Part shown: piece by piece, positions 23,882 to 42,870 of the stretch
Layout of the letters: each line of letters begins with the position of its first letter
Position numbering within the stretch: the first letter of the stretch is position 1
Source: Acarospora socialis
Taxonomy: Eukaryota > Ascomycota > Lecanoromycetes > Acarosporales > Acarosporaceae
NCBI GenBank assembly: GCA_025617375.2
Contig: JAMYGW020000009.1
Location: 124,001 to 188,000 of the forward strand
Reading direction: 5' to 3'
Length of the DNA: 64,000 bases
The notes under the pieces: model-generated
What the model was told of the DNA's origin: nothing
The model's input: only the letters and a program-made list of their open reading frames with translations
Databases searched by the model: none
Position numbers and translations under genes: made by a program

Positions 23882-26001
23882 CTAAACCTCCGGCTCCCCA
23901 CTCCCTCCCCTCCCATTCCCGCTTCCAAAAACCATATCCACCCTCCTCTCCCTCTCCCAGACCAGCACCCCATCACTCACCCTCCGAAACCACAAGATCC
24001 GATGTCCTGGCACGAAATCTTCCTCGCTGCTGTCTCCTTTCCACGCCTCTAATGAGATCTCTTTGACGCCTGCGAATCGGTCGAGGTAGCCGATCGTGTA
24101 AGACTCGCTGGAGAGGGAAGGGTCCCATCGGAGGCGGGAGAGGATGTCAGAAGCTGGTCGGAGTTTGGGTTTCGGTGCGGCTGGGGCTGCATTTGTAGGG
24201 AGGCTAGCATGCTTGGGTTTCAAAGGGTAGACGTTAGTGCTCTTAGGGTTTGAGCTATGTGGATGTTTCTGGGTCGTCTGGTTCAAGCTTTCAATGCCCT
24301 CCTCGTCATCATCGTCAGAGAGAGATTCTATGGTTCGGTCCTCGGCGATGTGGCCCCATTCTCTACAGTCGGGCCTGATGTCTGAGTGTCTTAACTCTGG
24401 TTGCTTGATGAGAGATATGTTGACGAAAGATGAGTTTGGGTCATAGCGGGCGTCGTTGTGGATTTGGGTTGTGAACGTTTCTATCGTGGTATGCAGTGCG
24501 GCTTGAGTGGTCCTGCGTTCCGTATTTTGGTGTGCTGTGCCATTATCTGTTCTGGCTAAGCCAATGAGATAGAAACTTCTGTAACTGTCAATTGCTTCTT
24601 GGTCGTTGTCCGTTGCTAAGATGAAGCGTGAAGGCCAGATTCTGGTATGTAGAACTGGTAGGGTTTGGTTGATGTCTGATAGCTGTTAGCATTATTCGGG
24701 CAGTGTGCTTGGGTGTTTCGTATACCAGCGATTATCAAGGGACATGTGCGATCTATCCATTTGACAAGCTTCCCACATTTGACGGTGGATCCGCCCCAGT
24801 AATGAATCTTAATCCTCATGAATGTTTCGAAGCCTTGCAAGAAGTTAATGACACCTGACTGGATTCTAATGTCTTCGGAAAAATGAGGTAGGCCCATCAA
24901 GCGTGGCCATGTCATATTTTTATCAGCCATCAACTCGTCCGCACCCTTCAACTCCTTAGTGATAGTTCGTAGTGTATCGGTCGAGACATTGGCTGCAACG
25001 TTGACCACAGGGCTGCACATAGTAAGAATGACTATTGGCTCTCGAATTGATCTTTGGTATCGAGGCTTCAGGTTGTGGAACTCCTCGTCGAAGATAATGT
25101 CTCGCTCGAAATCGAAGGCAGCGTAGTATGCAAAGAATGTACGGACAATAACTGTAGGAGATAAGACTACACCTCCTTCGAAGTGCCTCTTGCAGATTCT
25201 TGTGAGCATGAGAGTAATGTGTTGATCTCCTATATATCCGAACTGTGGCGAATATAGGCCTCGCTCTCTGGCCCACGCTGTAAGCACTCGATGAGCCGTC
25301 CGAAACGAGTCTAGGTCTGGGATGGTCCGCAGTAAGTACTCGACATCTCTGTAAGAGTTGAGCCTCTTCAGTGTAGGAATAGGAATATCAAGTATATGAC
25401 TTTCCGGTAAGTGTTCGAAGCGAATCTGTGACCATCTGTATCCTCATTAGATTTGATGTTAGATCCTTAGGGACACTTAGACTTACGATTCAGCAAACCT
25501 GCTTTGGCAATACTGCAGATTCAACTTGACACCCTGAATCTCAACCTCAAACATTGACCCGGATCCTGACTTATCAGCTAGTAGTACCTTCAGACCTTGG
25601 TCGGCCTCTCTTCGCAGGCGCTGATGAGCCATGGAGTAGAAGGTGTTGCTGCTGCATGAGCCGACGCATAAGAAATCAATATCAGAGGTGCTATCCCAGA
25701 CATTCAAGGCGTAGGATCTAATTGGCGCAATAACTAAGGACAGTCCCCGACCGCTCGAGGAGTATGCGACAGGTCCATCACCGCTTCGGATAACTTGTAT
25801 TTCTCCACCTAACAGGATACTCCTCAACTTGGCAAATGCGTTCTCGTATTGAGTTGTGTTATCCTCCGTTGGCGTCATGCCGCGTTGGAGGAGGAACGTG
25901 TTCATCTCTTCCGATAGCTGAATTGATGCTCCAACCGTCATGAGAGTGGTGGATGCTGTCGGAACACCAAACGCCTTGGAAGGAGAAATGGAGCCCGCCA
26001 T
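23882..26001 (-). CDS. PAP-like nucleotidyltransferase fused to MJ1316 RNA-end domain
   Basis: Exons 25487-26001, 24726-25435 and 23882-24675, with introns of 51 and 50 bp, give 672 residues in one frame. Residues 60-170 are a polymerase-beta-type nucleotidyltransferase core with the DxD pair at D107/D109 (TSDIDFLCVG). A poly(A)-polymerase-like central domain follows (RLNSYRDVEYLLRTIPDLD, AWARERGLYSPQFGYIG). Residues about 579-659 are an MJ1316 (DUF504) domain: RPASDILSRLRWD, YTIGYLDRF, FVPGHRILWFRR. This domain is predicted to recognise cyclic RNA ends in RNA repair. Two features look degraded: the GSxxLG turn is R95-S96-Y97, and the third metal Asp (normally DLQY) is N161. Larger fungal relatives also carry 2H-phosphoesterase or nuclease domains, absent here. 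It may be a binding or regulatory pseudo-enzyme. Confidence 0.82.
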
Positions 26002-27522: not shown

Positions 27523-28384
27523 GGCTCATTAGAATGAGAAGTTACTGGTAATTGGCTTATAGTATGTCCGATGCTCTATAGACCTTAGATAGGTATTTCT
27601 AGACGTCACAATCATCAGGGAAGTTCAAGCTCTTGGTCGTTTAAGTTTTCATGTGGTCTAAGTAGATGCTGCAATAAGTAATGTTTCTATCAAGCCGCAG
27701 CTCGCCCACTGAACGGTACTATTCCGTCTACCAATCCCTCCAATACCGCTCCAGCTCCGCATACACTAGATGACCTAGTCCTCTCCAGACGCACACGCAG
27801 AAGAAACTCGCTGTAATCCTCGTCACCGCATGCTCTCAGGACCGAGGACCGCACAAAGATGCGGTACAACCCGGTCGGAGGAGCAGCCGGATCAGATAGG
27901 TAATAGGAACCACACAACTTGAAACTATATTAACATTAGATCCACCCAGTAGTCTTGATCCCCATGTGGCCAAAACCACCCGTTGCAGAATTCAGCTCCG
28001 CATGCTCTGACAACCGAGGAGCACACGCAAGACTAAGGACCTTCTCGACTCTCGATCGCGAATGAAACTCGTGGTCTCTATCGCCATGGGAGGAGGGGTG
28101 TTCTGATCGTCAGGAGGAGGTTGATCGAAATTCCGCCGAATCATTTCCAGGTAGCCCTAACGTTGTGACGCGACGCGTAATCTTTCATCGTCCATCCCAT
28201 GTAAGCTTCTAACCTTCAACCCATCTTCTTCTCTGTCTACTGTTGAATCACCGCCTCCTATCTCTTACATCAAAGCTTTATAGTTGTCTCAAAAAAAAAT
28301 AACTCACAATTCTGTTACTGAATCCTAACTTTGATCCGACTTCTTTTGACCACCTAACTCTAACCACCCTTCTAAAATCTCTTC
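27523..28384. other. Gene-free accessory stretch with repeat copies
   Basis: 3' flank of the Nudix gene, then the GC-rich repeat copies listed separately (27744-28030), then a pyrimidine-rich stretch with AATAACTCACAATTC before the hypothetical ORF. No coding sequence recognised. Confidence 0.5.
27744..28030. repeat. GC-rich repeat, two partial copies
   Basis: Block A (27838-27897) reads GACCGAGGACCGCA, a hairpin-capable CCGCA..TGCGG, then GTACAACCCGGTCGGAGGAG and CAGCCGGATCAGA. Block B (27993-28025) repeats only its left flank (CTCCGCATGCTCTGACAACC, then GAGGAGCACACGCAAG). A third, well-preserved copy lies at 29392-29453. The element family is not recognised. Confidence 0.65.
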
Positions 28385-28882
28385 ATGTTGGTCAACAGCG
28401 TTGTGTGTCTCACATTATCACAAGTCTTCTCACTATTGAACCAGCAGCATCATCAAACGCCAATTCTTATCAACAAGATGAGGTCTGCTAAGGCTGAGAT
28501 TATTCATGGTGACATGATCAAGTATGAAGGATGGGCCATCGATATTGAAGGGAAACCTAACATGCATCCATGTCTATGTTGCGCTCAATATAAGAAGCAA
28601 GAGGTAGACGTTGTCAGTCATTTTACAGATTGGTCAGATCGCTGCGGTAATTGCGTCGGCAAACATTTTAGATCTCTTCTTACTCATTTATCAGTGCCGA
28701 GCACTGAGAGTAGCCCTACTAGGTCACCAGAAACAGTTGCGATTGTCATACAGTACGGTGTATACACGCTTCGGCCGCGCGTTAAAGCCCAGTCAAAGGA
28801 ACATCAGATCCACCCAGTTCTCTTTATACACCTGTGGTTAGGTGCCCGTTGTAAACTTCAATCTTGCTCAAAAAGGTCTTGA
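28385..28882 (+). CDS. Hypothetical protein with two CxxC pairs
   Basis: A 165-codon ORF with ATG at 28385 (second Met at 28478-28480). The middle region has CLCC and, about 25 residues later, CGNC, spaced like a small zinc-binding module (HPCLCCAQYKKQE, DRCGNCVGKH). I know no family that matches. It lies in a repeat-rich patch and abuts the CpG-poor block, so it could be a young or relic gene rather than a working one. The last 60 codons have poor coding character and an intron after THL is possible. Confidence 0.3.
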   Translation: MLVNSVVCLTLSQVFSLLNQQHHQTPILINKMRSAKAEIIHGDMIKYEGWAIDIEGKPNMHPCLCCAQYKKQEVDVVSHFTDWSDRCGNCVGKHFRSLLTHLSVPSTESSPTRSPETVAIVIQYGVYTLRPRVKAQSKEHQIHPVLFIHLWLGARCKLQSCSKRS

Positions 28883-29381
28883 TGTTGACATTTTGAACTG
28901 TTCATTCAACTGTTTCAATCATCTTAAGCAACTCTCTGAATTGTAGTTGATCTGCTTTCTCACTTGCTTGATCAATTTCTGCTTCACAATCATATTGTGT
29001 CAGTAAGTTGCTGAGATTGTCTGCAGACAACTTGATCTCTTTATTTGTTGCAGTATTGATTAGATCTTCATCGATGAAAAAGAGTGATTGCTGTGCTGAT
29101 TTATTCTGAGATTTCTTCTTGACTGCATGATCAAGTCTTGACTTCAAATGGTTCTGATAGTAGACGCAACAAATCTTGTATATATGATATTAGTCTTCAA
29201 AACTGCATCACCCAATGCTTAATCTGTTTCGACTGCAGCTTTCTCAAAACAGTCTGATAATTTTTGCATTAAACATCACATCATGATCACTTAAGACATG
29301 TAATCTTTGATGATTTTAGAAAAGTTCTTGTCAGTGTTGCTTGATAAAGATATGTCATATTGAAGTTGTTTCTTGATTAAA
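28861..29381. other. AT-rich, CpG-depleted block with a sharp right edge
   Basis: By my reading only 3 CpG dinucleotides occur in these 521 bp, against 4 in the next 20 bases. Minus-strand frames encode Lys/Asn/Ile-rich, broken peptides (for example 28902-29147). This fits an old element altered by C-to-T change (RIP or methylation decay) or foreign DNA; no protein family is recognised. Confidence 0.6.
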
Positions 29382-29460
29382 GACCGCCGCGTGCACGACC
29401 GAGGACCGCACGCAAGCGCGGTACAACCCTGTCGGAGCACAGCCGGATCAGAGCTACCAG
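29382..29460. repeat. GC-rich repeat, third copy
   Basis: GACCGAGGACCGCAC..GCGGTACAACCCTGTCGGAGCACAGCCGGATCAGAGC matches the copy at 27838-27897. It begins exactly where the CpG-poor block ends. From 29460 to 29772 the sequence is unassigned, with broken frames on both strands. Confidence 0.65.
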
Positions 29461-29772
29461 AGATGAACGTATCTTCTTCCGTTGGATGGATCCGTCGCGA
29501 AAACCATGGTAGAATAGAGTGCGAGTATCGAGTGCCATGCTCCTGCAAACTGGTTCGTGGCGCTGGACGTTGGCTTGCGTCAACGGAGCCACTCCTACAA
29601 GAGGTCGAATGTGATACAATAGGGTACCACTTGGCGCATGATCGCGACCTCCACATTCAAACCTCCACTGCCATACTCTTCTGGGTGTTAAGATCCTCTA
29701 GCACTTTAGCAAGAGGAACATCAATTTTCTGTTATTTGAGCGCTATCGTTCCTTCTTTTTCCCTTGCCGTTG

Positions 29773-30507
29773 TCAGGAGAGCCTGAGCTTGGTCTTTTTG
29801 GCTCTGTGCCAAGTCAAGAGCGGCCTTGAGTGCCTCGACGGTGGCGGCAGCTCGGTCAACTTCCTGTTCATGGATGTGCGGCAGGCTTTGTGAAGGTTTA
29901 TACCCACTGAACACGTACGATACGTGGTAATGAGGAAGTCGACCTTGAATTTTGGGTCGTTGAACTTGTTTGCAATGATGGTCCTTTCCTCGTCCGAGTG
30001 CCTGCTCCGAAGACTGAGGGTCCGAAATCCCAGGACGACAAGGAACATCTCCACATGCCACTGGCTCATGGGCCATTCGGCGAATATCAACACCCGGCGG
30101 TTCTGATCTATAACCTTGCGCAGAAGAATTCGGGCGAGGTATCGAAGCTTAGGACAGCTATTTGCGAGGTAGAAGGCGCAGGTACTCCGATCTCGGATCA
30201 GCGGCATGCCGTAGTCCAGTTTAACTTTGTTCATAAACCATGTCAAACCGTCATCCTGATAGTCATGCCACCGGTTAATCCCAGCCATGAGCTTGACCGT
30301 TGATGTAGCAGGCTCTTCCTCTTCCAAGTCTCCAGTGACGAGACCACGCTCGGCCACCTTGCGGAGAACTTTTCTCGCAAGGTTGGCAAAAGCTTTGGAG
30401 AACTCGGGCAAATGAAACGCTCTCTTGGTGAGCTTCCACCGGCCTTGGTGTTCTTCAAGTCCTGCATTTGTCGGGGTTGATACTGAGGAAGGTGAGGTGG
30501 GCGTCAC
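29773..30507 (-). pseudogene. SNF2-family helicase C-terminal lobe, severed fragment
   Basis: The 244-codon frame carries the second RecA lobe of an SNF2 ATPase: RRVLIFAEWPMSQWHVEMFL, SLRSRHSDEERTIIANKFND and motif V DFLITTYRTCSVGINLHKAC. Homology stops abruptly after LHKAC (near 29890), before motif VI (the GRxHRxGQ arginine finger), and the whole first lobe with Walker A/B is missing upstream. The next 110 bp in another minus frame encode a heptad-like helix (VDRAAATVEALKAALDLAQS) of unknown origin. It therefore looks like a moved or truncated copy of a host helicase gene and cannot be an active ATPase. No ATG or promoter is evident; the start given is only the frame limit. Confidence 0.8.
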
Positions 30508-30551: not shown

Positions 30552-33500
30552 CTAGTCCGCCCACTTCGACACATTGCTGTCGCGTGGTGGACCAGCCGGG
30601 CCGCGGGTTGCGCCCTGCCCGAAGTTGTTGTTGGGCAAGGAGAACGGAAACGGCTGGTTTGGCCGAAAGAGAGGCTCACCCCGGTTGGCGGCGGGGAATG
30701 AGAATGGGTTCTGAGGAAAGAGCGGCGTGGTAGGCGGGGCAAACGGAGGAGGTCGTTGCCCAGGAGCCCATGTCGAGCCGGCGTTGTAGGAGGGCGCGAA
30801 GCCCGAGGGAGAGGGAGAAAAGCCCGTGTTGTTGGGGCTGAAGGGGTGACGGGACGGCTGTCCGAAGTTGTAGCCGATTCCGTTGTTTTGCCCAGGAGGA
30901 CGGTAGGGCGGGAAGAGAGTGGAAGGTGACGGATTGAAGGACGCAGGCAGCTGCGGAGAGAAGGGCGGTCGAGGCGGGAGGTTTGGTTGGGGAGATGTGC
31001 TCCCCTCAGACGCCCAGCGGCTGAAGAGTCTGGAAGAACCAGGAGGCGGGAGAGTGGGTTGAGGTGACGTGCTTCCCTCGGGGCCCCAGCGGCTGGAGAG
31101 CATTGAAGAGGCCGGAGACTGCGCGGCATCTTGAGCTTCGGTAGAGTCTTGCTCATCGGCTACCTTACGCCCCTTGGTCCTCTGCCTACGTCTCCGTCGT
31201 GGCTCAGCACTCGGAGTGTCAGCGGACTGGCCCGTTGCTTGGTCCCGCACTCCATCAACCTCACTGCTCTCATCATGCAGTGGGGTATGGCTAGAAGTCG
31301 GACCCGTTGAGCCCGCCGGGACATATCCCCTAGGACCAGGCGTCGTTGCCTGGGCCGCCGGAGAGGAGTTTTGCTTCTGAGAGACTGCAGTCTCTCCAGA
31401 CTGCGGTCTAGCAACCCCTCCAGTGCTTGAACCACCCGCTCCATCGTCGTCTTCCTCCTTCGGGCTTGCCCGAGAGACGAAATCAACCTCGACTGGCAAT
31501 GGAGCTCCACACACCGGACAACGTCTATGCGCCAGTGAGTCGAGTGAGTGCCGCCGACTGCGGACTGGCATGCTACTTTCTGCTGGCTTCTCCCCAGCAG
31601 CCTGTCGCAGCTCCTTCGGTATGCAGGTTACCCTGACTGGCAGTGGGCCACCACATCGTAAGCATGCCTTATGTGCATGCGAGTCCAATGAGTGGCGTCG
31701 AGGGATTCGTTGACGCTTTGCCGCTTGTTGTTTGCCAGCTCGCTTTCGCTTGGCTTTGTGACCTCGTTTCCGCGCTGGGGCTACATTTTGCTCCTGAGCA
31801 GGCTCTGCCACCTCTTGACTCTCTAGGACGGCAGGCGGGACATGATGGGCCGGGTCTGCTTGGTGGGCCAAGCGTTGGGCCTCTGGTTCAGTGGGGTCCT
31901 CTTCCCCATCACCCTGTACCGTGCGCTGTTTTGCCTTGCTCTGGCCACCTTTGGCCCCGGTCTGCACCTCGGTTCGACGAGTCTCGAGTCGTCCCTCCAG
32001 GTCCTTGACCTGCTCCAGAGCTTGCGCAAGCTCCGCGTTTCCCCTCTCTAGCACTCGCTCCTGGTGCTCCGGGTTCCGTTCGTATGCTTGAACGGACGAG
32101 GTCTTGACATCGAGCTCATGCTCCAGGCGGCTGACTCGCTCTTGGAGTCTATCCACCCTCGAACGAGCCATCTCGTTGTCTTGCCGAAGTGCAGCAACTC
32201 CGGCTTCGGCATGGGTCAGTTCTGCATTATTCTGACCCAAGGATGCCCGGTCTCGCTCGGCCTGCGCCTCAAGCGTCTTGACGGCCGACGCTTTAAGCTC
32301 GAGATCGCGTTCGAGCCCCTCCGTCCGCTCCCGGAGACTTACTTCCTTTGCATGAGCTCCTTTGTGCTCGTGCTGGACTGCAGCGAGCTCAGACTTCAGG
32401 CTCGCCAACGCCAGGGCGTTCTGGTCTGAGGCGTTGCGTAGCTGCTGGACCTGCTGCTCTGAGGTCTCAACAGCTGACGAATTGCGGCTGAGATCATTCT
32501 CCAGCCGCTTGACTTCGTCCTCGAGGCTTTGTGATCTCGAATCAGCTTCCATGAGCTTCTGGCTGAGGTCATGGTTTTTGGAGTGTGACATCTCCAAATC
32601 AGTAGCTCCCTGATCAAGTTGCGCTTGAGTGTCCCGCAGCTGCTGTTGGAGACTTGTGATAGCGGAGATCTTGTTGGTAAAGTCGATCTCCAGCTGCTGC
32701 AAGCCAGCACGCAGCTTCTGAGCTGCTTCTTCAGCCACTTTTGCTTGTTCGGCAAGTCCGTCACGCTCAGAGCTTAGCTCCTCGATTTGGGCAGTCTTCT
32801 GCTTCAGAGACTGCTTCTGGCCCTCATATGAGATGTTCACAGCGTTGAGTCGCCGAGTTGTCTCTGCGTGCTTGATTTGTATGGCCCTTGCCTGATCGCG
32901 AGCCTGGTCTGACCGTTGCCGCTCTGTTAGCAACAGGTCATCCAGTGCCTTGTTGCCAGCTCGGAGGCGTTGAGTCTCTTCTTGAGCATGCTTCAGAGCT
33001 TGCTCTTGAGCTTCGGCATGGCGGTGAAGCTGAGCCTGCAATTCGTCTTCCAGGTTGGCAATCTTGTCCTGAGAGTCTCGCAGCTGCCGTTTGGAAGAAG
33101 CTTGAAAGGCTTCGATCTCATGGCGTTGGACTTCGAGCAACTGCTTTTGCTGCTCGAGATCATGCTGTAGAGTGGCCGCATATGCCTGAAGATCCTTTGC
33201 AGCCATCTCTTGTTGCTTGAGACTCTCTTGTCCCTCGGCGAGCAGCTTCGTCCGCTGGTCTAGATCCCGCTGTACAGCTTCCGCGTGTGCCCGGAGTTGG
33301 TCCGCTGTATTCTCAAGCCGTCTGTGATCCTCTTGGCCATCGGCGACCAGCTTCGTGTGCTGGTTCAGATCCCGCTGTAGAGAGTCGGTGTTTATTCGGA
33401 GTTGCATCACAGTTGTCTCGCAGATGTAGAGATCTTCCTGGCTCTTGATGAGCTGCTCCGTTCGCTGATCCAGATCCTTCCGAAGAGTGTCTGCTTGTAC

Positions 33501-34331
33501 CTGCAGTTGTCTCTCATCGGTCTCGCGGAGTTTGAGCGCTTTCTCTTTCTCATCGAGTAGCATGACCTTGGCGTCTAGATCCTTCCGCACGGTCTCCGCT
33601 TGTGCCACAAGTTGCTGGAAAAATGTCTCTTCGTGTTTGAGACCTTCCTTTTCCTTGGCGAGGACTTGGAATTGGGTGTAGACGTAATACCCAAGGCCAA
33701 TAGTCACAACGAAGAGAACAGCAGCGAAGAGCTGAATGAGCATCCCCACCATGAGGCTCAAAGGGAACACTATACGCCCAAACGACCAAAGGAGAGATCT
33801 GACGGCAATTAGAAGAGCTTTCCGCGTCCTCGACGTTGAGGCGTGACTGAAGTCATGGTTGCCGAGATGCAACTCGGCAGAGAAGTCTTTGAGATCCTCC
33901 ATCATGCGGATCAAGCCGTTGAAGACTGACAGAAAGTGCTTCGATATGCCTAGCCAAGCATCTACTACGGCGAAGGCGGCTAGGCGGAATCTGTAGAAGA
34001 TCGATTGGGGAGGGGGCCTGGTGTAGTTGGGCTCACCAGTAACATTCAGGTACGCTGGCTGCTCGTCTAGCTGCGTACCGTTCTGACTCGTTACTGGAGG
34101 TGAGACTGTGTCGTTGGTGACGTTAACCAACGGCACGACGGGAGCGACGATTTCCTGGGTCGAACTCGGCGTGAAGAAGTCAAGGACGTCGGGTACATGG
34201 AACGACGACGTGTAATCTATCGTGCGTTGATATATATAATCGAAGTCGCCATTTCGGCCCTTCTGGATGGCGAGCAGAATGGGCAGGATGACTGAAGCCA
34301 GAGTGGCGATGAGATGAGATACGATGAGCAT
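30552..34331 (-). CDS. Large membrane-anchored coiled-coil protein with CxxCG knuckles
   Basis: A single uninterrupted 1,259-codon exon. In order: a hydrophobic N-terminus (1-22, signal peptide or anchor); a region with five N-glycosylation sequons (N70, N73, N84, N96, N102), so probably lumenal; a strong membrane segment (about 188-217); a long coiled coil (about 220-790) that begins with five exact 35-residue repeats (244-418); a basic nuclear-localisation-like stretch (852-875, RKRGHKAKRKR); two copies of RRHSLDSxAHxxCxxCGxPLPV (878-899 and 926-947); and a Pro/Asn/Phe-rich tail with SRWxxEGSTSPQP repeats ending VSKWAD. No family is recognised. Topology suggests a type I protein with its coiled coil in cytosol or nucleoplasm, perhaps at the nuclear envelope; this is inference. 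Confidence 0.8.
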   Translation of the reverse strand: MLIVSHLIATLASVILPILLAIQKGRNGDFDYIYQRTIDYTSSFHVPDVLDFFTPSSTQEIVAPVVPLVNVTNDTVSPPVTSQNGTQLDEQPAYLNVTGEPNYTRPPPQSIFYRFRLAAFAVVDAWLGISKHFLSVFNGLIRMMEDLKDFSAELHLGNHDFSHASTSRTRKALLIAVRSLLWSFGRIVFPLSLMVGMLIQLFAAVLFVVTIGLGYYVYTQFQVLAKEKEGLKHEETFFQQLVAQAETVRKDLDAKVMLLDEKEKALKLRETDERQLQVQADTLRKDLDQRTEQLIKSQEDLYICETTVMQLRINTDSLQRDLNQHTKLVADGQEDHRRLENTADQLRAHAEAVQRDLDQRTKLLAEGQESLKQQEMAAKDLQAYAATLQHDLEQQKQLLEVQRHEIEAFQASSKRQLRDSQDKIANLEDELQAQLHRHAEAQEQALKHAQEETQRLRAGNKALDDLLLTERQRSDQARDQARAIQIKHAETTRRLNAVNISYEGQKQSLKQKTAQIEELSSERDGLAEQAKVAEEAAQKLRAGLQQLEIDFTNKISAITSLQQQLRDTQAQLDQGATDLEMSHSKNHDLSQKLMEADSRSQSLEDEVKRLENDLSRNSSAVETSEQQVQQLRNASDQNALALASLKSELAAVQHEHKGAHAKEVSLRERTEGLERDLELKASAVKTLEAQAERDRASLGQNNAELTHAEAGVAALRQDNEMARSRVDRLQERVSRLEHELDVKTSSVQAYERNPEHQERVLERGNAELAQALEQVKDLEGRLETRRTEVQTGAKGGQSKAKQRTVQGDGEEDPTEPEAQRLAHQADPAHHVPPAVLESQEVAEPAQEQNVAPARKRGHKAKRKRAGKQQAAKRQRIPRRHSLDSHAHKACLRCGGPLPVRVTCIPKELRQAAGEKPAESSMPVRSRRHSLDSLAHRRCPVCGAPLPVEVDFVSRASPKEEDDDGAGGSSTGGVARPQSGETAVSQKQNSSPAAQATTPGPRGYVPAGSTGPTSSHTPLHDESSEVDGVRDQATGQSADTPSAEPRRRRRQRTKGRKVADEQDSTEAQDAAQSPASSMLSSRWGPEGSTSPQPTLPPPGSSRLFSRWASEGSTSPQPNLPPRPPFSPQLPASFNPSPSTLFPPYRPPGQNNGIGYNFGQPSRHPFSPNNTGFSPSPSGFAPSYNAGSTWAPGQRPPPFAPPTTPLFPQNPFSFPAANRGEPLFRPNQPFPFSLPNNNFGQGATRGPAGPPRDSNVSKWAD
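33078..33602 (-). repeat. Five tandem 105-bp coding repeats (35 residues each)
   Basis: Units at residues 244-278, 279-313, 314-348, 349-383 and 384-418 share the pattern xAxTLxRDLDQxxxLLxxxQExL..xxxxxQLxx. The period is constant at 35 residues, exactly five heptads, so coiled-coil register is kept. Confidence 0.85.
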
Positions 34332-37158: not shown

Positions 37159-39518
37159 TCACCAATACTGCAATGCAGCCTGGTAGGCATTATCCGCCTC
37201 CTCTTTCGCTTTGCTCTTTGCTTTTTTGTCCGCCGTGCGCTTTTCGATGTTAGCTTTACCATTGCCAGGGGCACCGACACCGGCAACGCCAACACGTTGA
37301 CGCTGAGCGCCATCCCCGCCCCCAAGCTCCACCCTCAAACGCTCTGGACTCCCCCCATCGTCTCCCTCCTCTGGACTGGACCACCCCTCTGCGTTTTCTC
37401 TAACCCTTTCCTCCGCCTCTCTAACCGCCCACTCAACCTTCCTCTCCATGTCCTGCTCTCTCTCCTCCCTCTCCCTCTTCGCGTTCAAACCTCTTATCGC
37501 GATGCCCAGCAGCGCATACAGGGTATAGGCCGCGTCGTTGCCGGCATTATGTAGGTTCCAGCCCGCGATGCCGAGATCGAGCAAGATGGAGCCGAGGGAA
37601 CGGGCGTTGTTGTCGCGTGTCAGTGCACGGTAGAGGGAGGCAGTGTCGATGATTTCGAGCAGTGTCGAGAGATTTAGCGGGTTGTAACCTAGGCGTTGCA
37701 GGTAGTTGATGTCTTGGCTGATGTCATGGCCGACGAGGATGATATTGCGTTTTTCCGGGCCCGACTCTTGTGCTAGTGCGGTGCGTGGAGTGGGTGCCGT
37801 TTGAATGGCTGGGTCGGTATCAAGGTTTGGTTCTGCGAAGGGAGTAGCGGAGAACGGAGGACGGAAACATGAGGCTACGGTTCGAGGGGCGTGTTTGATG
37901 GAGATCCATTCGCTTTGACCGTCATTGAACTCGAAGCGGTCGGCACAGCCAGAGACGAAGTCTGTGTTGATTAGATGCGCGTGCTCTCGGATGCGGAAGT
38001 GGCGAGAGCGGATCACTTTCCTCCAAGCCTTGCCATCTTCTCCAGGTGGGATACCCTGAAGATCGCGGCTGTCGAGGGTGGAAACGCCGATCTCGGTGAT
38101 GATGTTGTGACTCCGTTCGTAAGATTCCACATCAACGCAGACGAATACAACGTCTTTGTCACAAGAATATGGCACGGCTTCATCGACAGCAACAGGGGGT
38201 AAGACTTGTCCCGCAGCGAGAGCGTGCTCCTTTCTAGCGTCTTGGAGCTCCGTCCAGCTCAGTTCTGCCTTCTGCAACGGATCGTCCTTTGCAGTGGCCG
38301 TGCGTCGGGGTCGAAGGCCGAGGTATCGTTGAGTGCGTTTCAACTCTCGACACCATTTCTGTTTCTGCTGGATCCGCTCGCCTTGCTTCTTGGCCTTTGA
38401 CGCCTTGGACTTGTTCTTCGAGGCGTCGAGGGCAGCTTCCATTTTCTCCTTGAAAGCTTTGAAAGAACGGTCCGTGGGCTCCTTTGTTGATGGAATCTCA
38501 CTTTCCAGTCTATACTCTTCTTGTGGGGCGTTACTCGTCATCTCGTCGAAAGCGTTCCGTGACCTAGAGCGACCGAGGTAGCGTGGGCGGGGAGTTGTTT
38601 CGTCACGAAACGAAATAAGGAAGCCACTATCTCTTGGAGCTTTGGGGAAAGAAAGATCACAGTTTAGTTCCTTGTTGATCTCTGTGAAAAGAGCCTGAAC
38701 TTGGCTTGAAGGTACGAAGAATATAGGCTTCACCGCTACCGACGGTGGAGGATGTACGTAGTAGCTGTACAGAACTGATCAGCACCACAACTTGCCGGAA
38801 ATGACAGGGAAGATACACCAGGCCGGGATGATGAAAGGAGTTGGTTGCAAATTGAGATAAAAAAGTCAATGTTCAGCGTGCAGGAGTGCTGTATGAACAG
38901 CAAACAAGCCATTGGTGAAGAAACTGTGACAGGCACGGAAGAGAAGGGAGAGGGGTATTCACTAGGACAGCAGGTGTTATCAGGAGCTTACATGTCCCAA
39001 GTCCGTTCCCAGAATTGGCCAGCGTTGAAGTAGCTATCGGCCACGACCTCTGATAAGTCCTTGCCCACGTGTCTGTAAGGATATCTGCTCACTGCCAGAA
39101 TAGGGCAGAACTTCTCGCCGGGAACGGCCAATTCCCCAAGCTGCAGCCCCAGACCTGGGGTATTGTCACTGGTCTCCAATCTGATTACGGCCGTGTGCTT
39201 TGGGGTCGTTGTAGGTCCTTGCTTCCCCTTCTTCTTACCTTTACGCTTCCCCGAGGCCGTTACGGATCCTGGCGCAGGTACGTTCTCATCGCCAGAGTCG
39301 TAGACTACTGGCTCAATATCTTCTCCGTAGCTGGGGTATGACGTCGGTAAGTCCTGGTTCGTGTGAGAAGTTGTTGAGTCGGTTAGGGCGGTCGCTTCGA
39401 AAGGAGGAGTCGTCTCTTGTTGGGCCTCTTCCACAGCTACCGGAAGCTTTGGGAGCCGACCTTCGACAAGATCATCCTCGAAAAGAAGTCTCAATTTCTC
39501 GGCTTTTGACGCCGCCAT
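37159..39518 (-). CDS. Gfd2/YDR514C-like DEDDh exonuclease-domain protein
   Basis: Exons 38992-39518 and 37159-38764, joined across a 227-bp intron (GTAAGC..GTACAG), give 710 residues. The ATG at 39518 has a good context (ACCATGGCG); an in-frame ATG 33 nt upstream is possible. The N-terminal part contains AGQFWERTWDIYYVHPPPS, typical of fungal Gfd2-like proteins. The C-terminal RNase H-like fold keeps the DEDDh residues: D387-x-E389 (FVCVDVESYE), GHDISQD (D523) and H581-x4-D586 (HNAGND). Yeast Gfd2 was linked genetically to the mRNA-export helicase Dbp5, and YDR514C is its paralogue; their catalytic role is poorly known. Retention of all four acids suggests real nuclease activity here. A charged, repetitive tail with a KKAKSKAK stretch follows. 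Confidence 0.88.
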
Positions 39519-40350: not shown

Positions 40351-42870
40351 ATGGCAATGACGGACGCGCTTGGAGACATGACTGTCGATGTGCCTGTGGA
40401 TCCTGATGCACAAGCCACTGTTACCGACTTCCTCGACTACACCGAGTACCTTCCTTCGGATCTCATACGCTCCTTGACACTGATTCGCAAGCTTGACCAG
40501 TCCTACCTCAGCTCGACCTCCGCCGTCCATAACCTCACCAAAGTCTACGGCTCCCTGCCCACTATTCCCACGGATGAACGGCCGGATCCTGTTTCTCTTC
40601 GCAGCCAGATCTCACATAATCTCGATCATGCCATCAGCGCTCGCGAATCCTCTTACGCCGAAGCGTCCCGTCTGTACGACGTTGTGGACCGACACTACAA
40701 TCGCCTGACAAGCATCATTTCGAAACTACAATCCCTTCCCAAACCACCGTCTCGCGATCCAACACCTGTGCCTCAGCCTGCTTCACCACAACAGAACCGG
40801 TCTAGAGGAGGTAATGCCAACGCAGGCGCAGGTACTACGCCTCCACCTCGCATCACACTACGGCTTGATGGCGCACGAGCGGCGGCAGCGGCAGCGGCTG
40901 CTAGAGCGCCTAGCGCTGCACCTCGTGCAAGAAACCGAGGTCGCAAGGTCACTGTTCCGGGCGATGTTCTTCCACCGCCGAATCCTGACTCGCCACCTCC
41001 AAGCACCGTCTCTGATTGGGAGTCATTGCCGCCATCGCCCATACCGGTGGCTACCGCTCGCGTTGGAGCACCGTCGCGAAGTCGGTCCAGCAGACCGGGG
41101 CAAGTAAAGCCTCCTAAGCCACCGAAGCTCCCGAAGATCAAGCTTCCCAAGATCCCTCGCGGTCCAAGACCACCTGGTGTGATGGGCACAAATGTACATA
41201 GTGCGGTTGCCGGCATCTCGACGAGCAATGCACTATCCTTACTCGAACCTCCGCCTCCCGACGCCAAGCCAGGGAGCGAGCACGCTCCATGGATGCGACT
41301 TACGGAGTGGGAGATGGCCAAACTACGAAAGCGAATGAAGAAAAACGCGGTCTGGTCACCTAGCGAAACGATGATCAGGCGGGAACTTGCCGACCGTGGT
41401 CGTGGCCCTGAAAACTATCGCGCGACCAAGTTACGTGCTGAAGCCAACAATGAAGAATTCCTCGACTATGACAAGATCGCTTCAACAGCTCCTGGGAAGG
41501 TCCTTGCGCCTGGCGAGATCAGCGCGGATTCCTTGGGCATGGAAGAATCGCAACTCAGCAACCGCGGCATGAAGCTGAACGAGGCCAAGAAACTGAAGAA
41601 GGAGAACTTAGCAAGGGAACAAGCCGCTCAAGCTGCGATCGAGGCCGAGCAAGCAGCCACAAGACTGGGTGCGGTCGGTAGCGTGATCAGCAATCTGTTC
41701 AGCCCACGAACGGACGACGTCGGCGAGAGTGTCGTTGTCAACGCAGCCAAGGGGAAAGGCAGAGAGACAGCCAAATCTGCGACGGCGAAACGCAAAAGAG
41801 ACACGACGCCCAAGCAAGAAGACAGCCATGCCGAACCACCCGAACCGACCAAATCCCCGATATCCCCCACCAAACGATCTCCCAAGAGACGAAAGCTTGC
41901 AACACCCGCCCCCGCCCCCGTGCTAGCAGCAAACACCAGCACGACCACGACCTCCATCCCGCTCGCCGCAGCAGGCCGCTCCTCCTCCCGAGCATCCACG
42001 CCAACCATGCCCTCGCCAACCGAGACCAAAAAACCCGCAAATACCACCACCACCACCACAGCAACTCATGCCAAATCCCGCCGTCCATCCGTCGCGATCG
42101 CCGCGCCCATCGGCGGCAAAGCCTCCTCCCCTACCTCCCCGCGTCCCCCTTCCCGCAACCAACGCGCCTCCGTCCCCCGCTCCGCCAAACCCTCCGTCGA
42201 ACCGCAACCCGCAACCACCACGACCGCCGCCCGCGACCGCGCCCGCCGCGCCAGCACGACAAGCGTGCGCACCGCTCGCGATCCCACGCCAGCCCGCATC
42301 CCCGCTCCTCGCCGCAGCAAGCGTCCCGCGCCCGGGCCCGTGACGAGCAGCCAGGACGGCGGTGCGGCCGTCAGCGTCGGGCGACGGAAAGCGGCGCCCA
42401 GGAAACGAGGGGGGAGGAGAGTCACTCCGGCCGCAACGGCGACGACGAGAACGAGAGAGGAAGACGTGGAGGAAGAGACGGCGGGCGAGGGCGAGGAAAT
42501 GGACATCGACCCGGACGAGCCGCGCTACTGTCTTTGCGGCGACGTCAGTTTCGGGAACATGGTCTGTTGCGAGAATAGTGATGTATGTTTTCCCCCACCC
42601 CCACTATCGTATGCTCGTCCTTCTCTTCGCTGGATGTTTGTTTCTGTTCGGAGGCGGGATACTTGGGTCTTGGGTTGATGTTGACGTTGATGTGCGATAT
42701 AGTGCGAGCGCGAATGGTTCCATTTCGAGTGCGTGGGGCTCAGCGAGCCGCCTGGAAGGACGACGAAGTGGTACTGTCCGGAGTGTCGGAAGAGGTTGGG
42801 GGTTGGGGAGAAGGGGCAGGGGCTTGGTGGGGGTGGTGGAGGTGGGGGCAAGGGGGGAAGGAAGAAATGA
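40351..42870 (+). CDS. ING-family chromatin reader with PHD finger
   Basis: Exons 40351-42582 and 42703-42870 (intron 120 bp) give 799 residues. The N-terminal ING helical domain is at about 22-130 ([20 protein letters not shown], then [20 protein letters not shown]). A very long basic, Ala/Pro/Ser-rich disordered middle follows. The PHD finger spans 727-772: [20 protein letters not shown], then EREWFHFEC and WYCPEC. The cage residues for H3K4me3 (Y726, M737, W749) are present. The intron falls inside the finger, so both exons are needed. ING proteins are subunits of NuA4, NuA3 or Rpd3L histone-modifying complexes; which one applies is not clear. At about 800 residues it is at least twice the usual yeast ING length, all of the excess in the disordered linker. 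The C-terminus is Gly/Lys-rich. Confidence 0.9.

Follow-up and report, generated by a model that had tools for sequence, protein, structure and literature searches.

A family of predicted membrane-anchored coiled-coil proteins with a basic, two-CxxC tail and a member in Acarospora socialis: a possible tether of the endoplasmic reticulum

This work concerns a single gene in a 64,000-nucleotide stretch of the genome of Acarospora socialis (assembly GCA_025617375.2, contig JAMYGW020000009.1, positions 124,001 to 188,000 of the forward strand; the whole stretch is called the window, and positions are counted from its first letter). On the minus strand between 30552 and 34331, an open reading frame runs for 1,259 codons from an ATG at 34331 to a stop codon; read in frame 1 of the plus strand, the same interval is full of stops. 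A sequence-only reading of the window had picked out this frame without naming its strand, and had described it as a single-exon gene for a membrane coiled-coil protein of no recognizable family, perhaps an inner nuclear membrane protein or an organelle tether. The open reading frame is real. Its product, P0001, belongs with nine relatives (P0002 to P0010) to a family of ten proteins, which may be tethers anchored in the membrane of the endoplasmic reticulum (ER). The parts of the gene and its product are as follows, where NLS stands for nuclear localization signal and pLDDT for the predicted local distance difference test score of the AlphaFold models.

30552..34331, minus strand: whole coding sequence, 1,259 codons and a stop in one exon, along the length of which the relatives align
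34266..34331, minus strand: residues 1-22, hydrophobic helix at the N-terminus, probably kept as a membrane anchor (helix 2-25 in a low-confidence model)
34203..34265, minus strand: residues 23-43, the most conserved stretch measured (QKGRNGDFD.IYQRTIDYTSS type; lowest pairwise identity 86%)
33996..34202, minus strand: residues 44-112, loop rich in N-glycosylation sequons, likely ER-lumenal
34038..34046, minus strand: sequon N96-x-T/S, kept in all nine members having the region
33864..34001, minus strand: residues 111-156, candidate amphipathic helix in a low-confidence model, probably not membrane-spanning
33672..33755, minus strand: residues 193-220, second membrane helix, continuing directly into the rod
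33072..33671, minus strand: residues 221-420, membrane-proximal part of the rod, made of tandem five-heptad repeats (35 residues each)
31917..33665, minus strand: residues 223-805, predicted coiled-coil rod (a helix at about 754-794 is modelled with pLDDT 87-94)
31692..31772, minus strand: residues 854-880, basic cluster, NLS-like or RNA-binding-like (net charge +13 over residues 846-880)
31629..31700, minus strand: residues 878-901, first RRHS...CxxCGGPLPV motif
31485..31556, minus strand: residues 926-949, the motif repeated (RRHS...CPVCGAPLPV) at a distance of 48 residues in nine of ten members and of 43 in P0008
31164..31199, minus strand: residues 1045-1056, second basic stretch (RRRRRQRTKGRK), replaced in P0002, which is seemingly out of frame there
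30555..31151, minus strand: residues 1061-1259, proline-rich and probably disordered tail with SRW motifs and a C-terminal SKWAD (an S[KR]WAD-like end closes all seven members that reach the end)

The single exon is supported by the relatives, including an NCBI record from Acarospora (P0009), which align over the whole length without any intron-like insert. The gene also appears to be alone in its genome. In the assembly of 31.1 Mb and 38 contigs the whole protein matched only itself, with no paralogue match, and the N-terminal piece and the tail piece, searched separately, each gave one match, to the gene itself.

The relatives were found by searching residues 1-330 against 5.8 billion proteins; of 3,643 candidates, nine had an E-value of 1e-3 or better, and these are the relatives, with identities to P0001 of 34-65% over the whole alignment. 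What places P0002 to P0010 in one family is a conserved N-terminal unit, a membrane helix, a rod, a basic cluster, two CxxC motifs and an end of the SKWAD type. Seven of the nine share the start methionine; P0007 starts within the loop and P0010 within the rod. Six reach the end (SKWAD, SKWVD, SRWAD or SRWAY, with SKWVD in P0002 and SRWAY in P0008), and P0004, P0006 and P0007 stop earlier. The only relative with a name is P0009, the hypothetical protein MMC16_004299 of Acarospora aff. strigata, with 40% identity over the alignment. Acarospora is placed by taxonomy in the Lecanoromycetes and is a genus of lichen-forming fungi. MMC16_004299 is uncharacterized; it has its parts in the same order as P0001 from the first methionine through the SKWAD end, with a shorter rod (558 residues from the membrane to the first RRxS, versus 665 in P0001). 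Its locus tag was not mentioned in the literature searched, and the other literature searches, made for context, are no proof that the family has gone undescribed. Two further searches, with the Acarospora N-terminal part and the basic-CxxC part as queries and E up to 1, brought up known members only. The search tool requires shared words of five residues and restricts length, and the N-terminal query missed the known P0007 and P0010, as the basic-CxxC query missed P0005, P0007 and P0008; because both searches missed known members, more distant relatives may well exist, and we make no case for a family restricted to lichen fungi.

As to the earlier statement that the protein fits no family, it holds for the curated libraries, and the nine relatives are what it lacked. 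Pfam gave no family at cut-off for P0001 and eight relatives, and for all ten members nothing above cut-off where shown, among 25 of the 28 families listed. A sequence search of the PDB gave no hits, and NCBIfam, run on four of the ten members, had nothing above its curated cut-off where shown. The matches of the NCBIfam SMC and Rad50 models (best E 5.5e-14) are rod similarity, and a profile search of the PDB returned 23 hits (best E 0.005), all at profile positions 334-765; we read both as generic coiled coil. An SMC or Rad50 identity was rejected, the SMC models matching the rod only with at best 50.9 bits against a cut-off of 567, with no ATPase match in Pfam. A zinc ribbon (DZR) was likewise rejected, at 13.5 bits against the Pfam gathering cut-off of 27.3. 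In the protein database a precomputed PF24161.2 label is attached to six of the nine relatives (P0002, P0003, P0004, P0008, P0009 and P0010), and our Pfam scans of nine members, with E up to 1, do not list PF24161.

The N-terminus had been called signal-like, and one strong membrane span had been proposed. P0001 in fact has two hydrophobic stretches of comparable strength, residues 2-20 and 193-211 (mean Kyte-Doolittle values of 2.41 and 2.60), and the first scores above the second in P0003, P0005 and P0008, which points to two membrane helices at about 2-22 and 193-220. No charged residue precedes the hydrophobic run at the N-terminus. Mean identities were taken from the 28 pairs among the eight members with a complete N-terminus, leaving out P0007 and P0010. 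They come to 80% for residues 1-22 and 93% for residues 23-43, then fall to 42% for 44-112, 57% for 113-172, 54% for 173-222 and 48% for 223-800, with 60% for 853-950. Cleaved signal peptides usually drift in sequence, whereas residues 1-43 are conserved, so the N-terminal unit is probably retained as an anchor rather than removed as an ordinary signal peptide, and would dock on something that is itself conserved. The sequence-only reading, made before any relatives were known, had no means of seeing this conservation. A third segment, residues 111-156, is hydrophobic and amphipathic, and on an approximate scale it has the poorest insertion energy of the three in each of nine members scored (1.75 to 5.2). 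The AlphaFold model that covers these segments, built from nine sequences, is poor (mean pLDDT 55.0); with that low confidence it has helices at 2-25, 31-41, 50-53 and 111-156, and one unbroken helix from 166 to 269 that leads from the membrane into the rod.

An indication of sidedness comes from the sequons. Across the nine members that have this region, loop 44-112 amounts to 594 residues and contains 28 sequons, 3.6 times the 7.9 expected, and none of 2000 shuffles reaches 28; the proposed glycosylation-rich segment is thus real. The N96 sequon is found in all nine and N70 in seven. Elsewhere the counts are what chance would give: 1 against 1.4 expected in residues 113-186, 23 against 20.2 in the rod (560 of 2000 shuffles reach that number) and 21 against 19.4 in the tail (767 of 2000). 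Enrichment limited to the loop is what exposure of the loop alone to the glycosylation machinery should give, and the pattern fits a loop that is likely lumenal, with the rod and the tail outside the lumen.

The coiled-coil prediction is supported as well. Residues 225-805 contain one proline in 581 residues and a heptad periodicity 5.4 standard deviations above shuffles, a value that none of 500 shuffles reached. If residues 225-800 formed one unbroken coil, the rod would be about 85 nm long. At its membrane end, the best self-match lies at an offset of 35 residues in all six members examined (P0001 to P0006), and most differences in length between relatives, counted by eye in the alignment, are multiples of seven: compared with P0001, P0005 lacks 35 residues and P0006 lacks 70 in the repeat zone, and P0004 carries 63 extra further along the rod. 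An insert of 38 residues in P0002, also counted by eye, is the exception. From the membrane to the first RRxS the nine members span 490-731 residues, and because of this variation the rod looks like a spacer of drifting reach rather than a fixed ruler.

Beyond the rod the protein changes in character, with an isoelectric point of 9.9 in the tail versus 5.4 in the rod. The NLS-like cluster noted earlier is there: from R862 to S881, over the basic cluster and its RRHS end, nine positions are invariant in all ten members. The first RRxS copy is RRHS in every member, and the second is RRHS, RRNS, RRYS or RRDS; RRxS is a consensus of kinases of the protein kinase A (PKA) type. What had been described as a zinc-knuckle-like tail turns out to be two CxxCG[GA] pairs 48 residues apart rather than CCHC knuckles, with putative zinc binding and no confident predicted fold. 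After the second CxxC motif the tail of P0002 no longer resembles those of the other members; it comes back into line at its SKWVD end and looks out of frame in between. A search of the genome for other SKWAD ends, a partial test with one fixed codon set and TAR stops, found the pattern with a TCN serine codon only at the gene itself, and the pattern with an AGY serine codon once, in a match that reads SHWAD.

The reading we favour, tentatively and with somewhat less than even confidence, is that P0001 is a cytosolic tether anchored in the ER or the outer nuclear envelope, whose predicted rod carries a basic tail with two CxxC pairs; close to the ER, this tail would likely bind RNA or polysomes. 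In this proposal, both N-terminal helices would stay in the membrane of the ER or outer nuclear envelope, and the loop between them would be N-glycosylated in the lumen, where residues 23-43 may dock on a conserved partner. The rod would project into the cytosol as a parallel dimer. At its far end the basic tail may grip RNA or ribosomes, the four cysteines could bind zinc, and a PKA-type kinase might switch the RRxS serines. What the sequences themselves show is how the parts are ordered, that sequons are enriched in the loop alone, that residues 1-43 are extremely conserved, that the rod has its heptad periodicity and 35-residue repeats, and that the basic motif and the duplicated RRxS-CxxCG[GA] motifs are invariant. 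The anchor, the sidedness and the rod are predictions with support behind them; the roles of RNA, zinc and phosphorylation, and the existence of a partner for residues 23-43, are what we infer. Of the original tether-or-nuclear proposal, the membrane-anchored coiled-coil tether fits the lumenal sequons, the two likely helices, the rod and the basic tail, all common to the relatives; the one feature that points to the inner nuclear membrane is the NLS-like cluster.

Several points weigh against the ER tether. The members are related, and the shuffles therefore overstate the independence of their sequons; when the columns of the loop were permuted, 47 of 3000 trials likewise gave a sequon in nine of nine members. 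A sequon at N1253 near the C-terminus, a site that we place in the cytosol, is kept in six of seven members, which makes the conservation of a single sequon no proof. K24 and R26 follow directly after the first helix in P0001, and by the positive-inside rule these charges would favour the opposite orientation of that helix. In the tail, no RNA-binding domain was recognized in the Pfam scans, the zinc-ribbon models of Pfam score about half their cut-off, and the AlphaFold model has a mean pLDDT of 53.4 with no confident fold. An NLS would be an equally good reading of the basic cluster. Lastly, the order of the parts is reversed relative to the ER protein p180, whose basic part sits between the membrane and the coil.

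Were the basic cluster a true NLS, the protein could belong to the inner nuclear membrane, with its rod and tail forming a lamina-like layer or a chromatin tether in the manner of plant NEAPs, which have a C-terminal anchor and an NLS. We consider this possible, though doubtful. The conservation of the cluster speaks for it, and so does size up to a point. In yeast, passive passage stops at about 90 kDa, whereas active import works at 136 kDa and fails at 176 kDa, in the experiments described in PMC4695851; the extralumenal part of P0001, computed at 114.8 kDa, exceeds the passive limit and lies below the bracket of 136-176 kDa for active import. By size, then, a monomer could be actively imported and the inner membrane is open to it; a dimer, if it forms, would double the mass. 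The comparison with Heh1 and Heh2 is less favourable. They resemble P0001 in having a membrane helix and an NLS-like basic cluster, but Heh2 is described as reaching the inner nuclear membrane by an NLS together with a disordered linker (PMC4695851), and where Heh2 has this linker between NLS and membrane, P0001 has the predicted rod of about 580 residues (223-805) and no linker of the Heh type. No LEM or MAN1/Src1 C-terminal (Heh-type) domain was matched by Pfam in nine members with E up to 1, and no SUN domain is among the matches of these nine. NEAPs, described in PMC7746247 as coiled-coil proteins that a transmembrane segment anchors at the inner nuclear membrane, are a precedent for a membrane-anchored coil in that place. 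They share the coil and the anchor with P0001; they are plant proteins, and the comparison is by description, with no direct sequence match sought.

The proline-rich tail invites another thought, that of an ER exit site scaffold like TANGO1, with a lumenal part, a membrane part, a coil and a tail gripping the COPII coat. The tail of P0001 is 18% proline with 10 PP pairs. The PPP motif, which has a role in Sec23 binding, occurs only zero to three times per tail, however, and is absent in five of ten members (of the ten tails, three are truncated). None of the Pfam matches in nine members, P0001 included, is an SH3 domain, and the additional basic and CxxC motifs would be left unexplained. TANGO1 and cTAGE5 do have the same order of lumenal part, membrane part, coil and proline-rich region, and in PMC4565863 TANGO1 is reported as metazoan only. 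Taken together, we find this explanation unlikely. A different topology, with the first helix running from out to in, 111-156 as a transmembrane helix and the sequons in the cytosol by chance, seems a little less probable again. It would suit the positive charges behind helix 1 and the hydrophobic maximum above 1.4 within 115-137 in several relatives, but it would not account for sequon enrichment in the loop only, and it would have to use the segment of poorest insertion energy. Slightly less probable still, to our mind, is a tether at the plasma membrane or the septal pore, comparable to the Woronin-body protein Lah. Lah is a transmembrane tether of filamentous fungi, yet its membrane span and outer domain are described as lying in the C-terminal 288 residues (PMC5345055), whereas the membrane part of P0001, compared by description, is N-terminal.

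Other features of the window lie around the gene. Just downstream, at 29773-30507 on the minus strand, is the C-terminal fragment of a helicase (Helicase_C, 26.2 bits versus a cut-off of 23.5). This fragment is matched at six other places in the genome, three of them with internal TGA stops (5, 1 and 1), the pattern that decay would leave in copies of a repeated SNF2-like gene. The adjoining 27700-29760 has no obvious gene, and only two short pieces of it recur elsewhere in the genome (73 bases at 93% and 52-53 bases at 89%). An open reading frame at 24616-25287 on the minus strand carries part of the central domain of a poly(A) polymerase (39.2 bits) and is probably a single exon from a larger gene. 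On the other side, 37159-38733 on the minus strand encodes a protein with a strong DEDDh_C domain (233.7 bits), whose family takes its name from the epsilon subunit of DNA polymerase III, and 40351-42678 on the plus strand encodes a protein with an ING N-terminal domain (33.8 bits versus a cut-off of 23.9), likely a subunit of a chromatin complex.

We would like to return to the ER tether and to the animal proteins it most recalls. PMC3362647 describes p180 (RRBP1) as a protein of the ER that combines a membrane helix with basic domains and a long coil; in vitro its lysine-rich region binds RNA, an instance of the binding of RNA by basic stretches in ER proteins. P0001 has a strongly basic region like p180 and kinectin, and from its hydrophobicity, sequon distribution and periodicity it is predicted to resemble them in an N-terminal membrane anchor and a long cytosolic rod as well. 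It differs in its lumenal part, about 150 residues between two helices compared with a lumenal end of 7 residues in p180, and in its basic part, which lies beyond the coil where the basic repeats of p180 lie before it. No Pfam family reached cut-off and no named animal protein was among the hits, with no direct comparison to p180 run. Because the searches revealed no homology and P0001 has its coil before its basic part, the opposite of p180, we do not file it as p180; a p180-like mode of action that arose independently is the view we favour. According to PMC9804665, animals organize the rough ER with p180, kinectin and CLIMP-63, and these are found only in some metazoa, which would make a fungal counterpart convergent. 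One may go further and suppose that a fungal lineage that includes lichen formers invented its own glycosylated coiled-coil ER tether for mRNA or polysomes, with a reach tuned by gain and loss of the five-heptad repeat and a grip switched by phosphorylation of the paired RRxS beside the paired CxxC; as a whole this stays speculative and rather unlikely. A fungal protein that does combine a basic tail and a long rod with anchoring in the ER would mean that this solution arose twice, once in a lineage including lichen-forming fungi. The near-invariant residues 23-43 predict a conserved partner. A place at the inner nuclear membrane would instead make it a membrane protein with a long rod that is imported without the disordered linker on which Heh2 depends.

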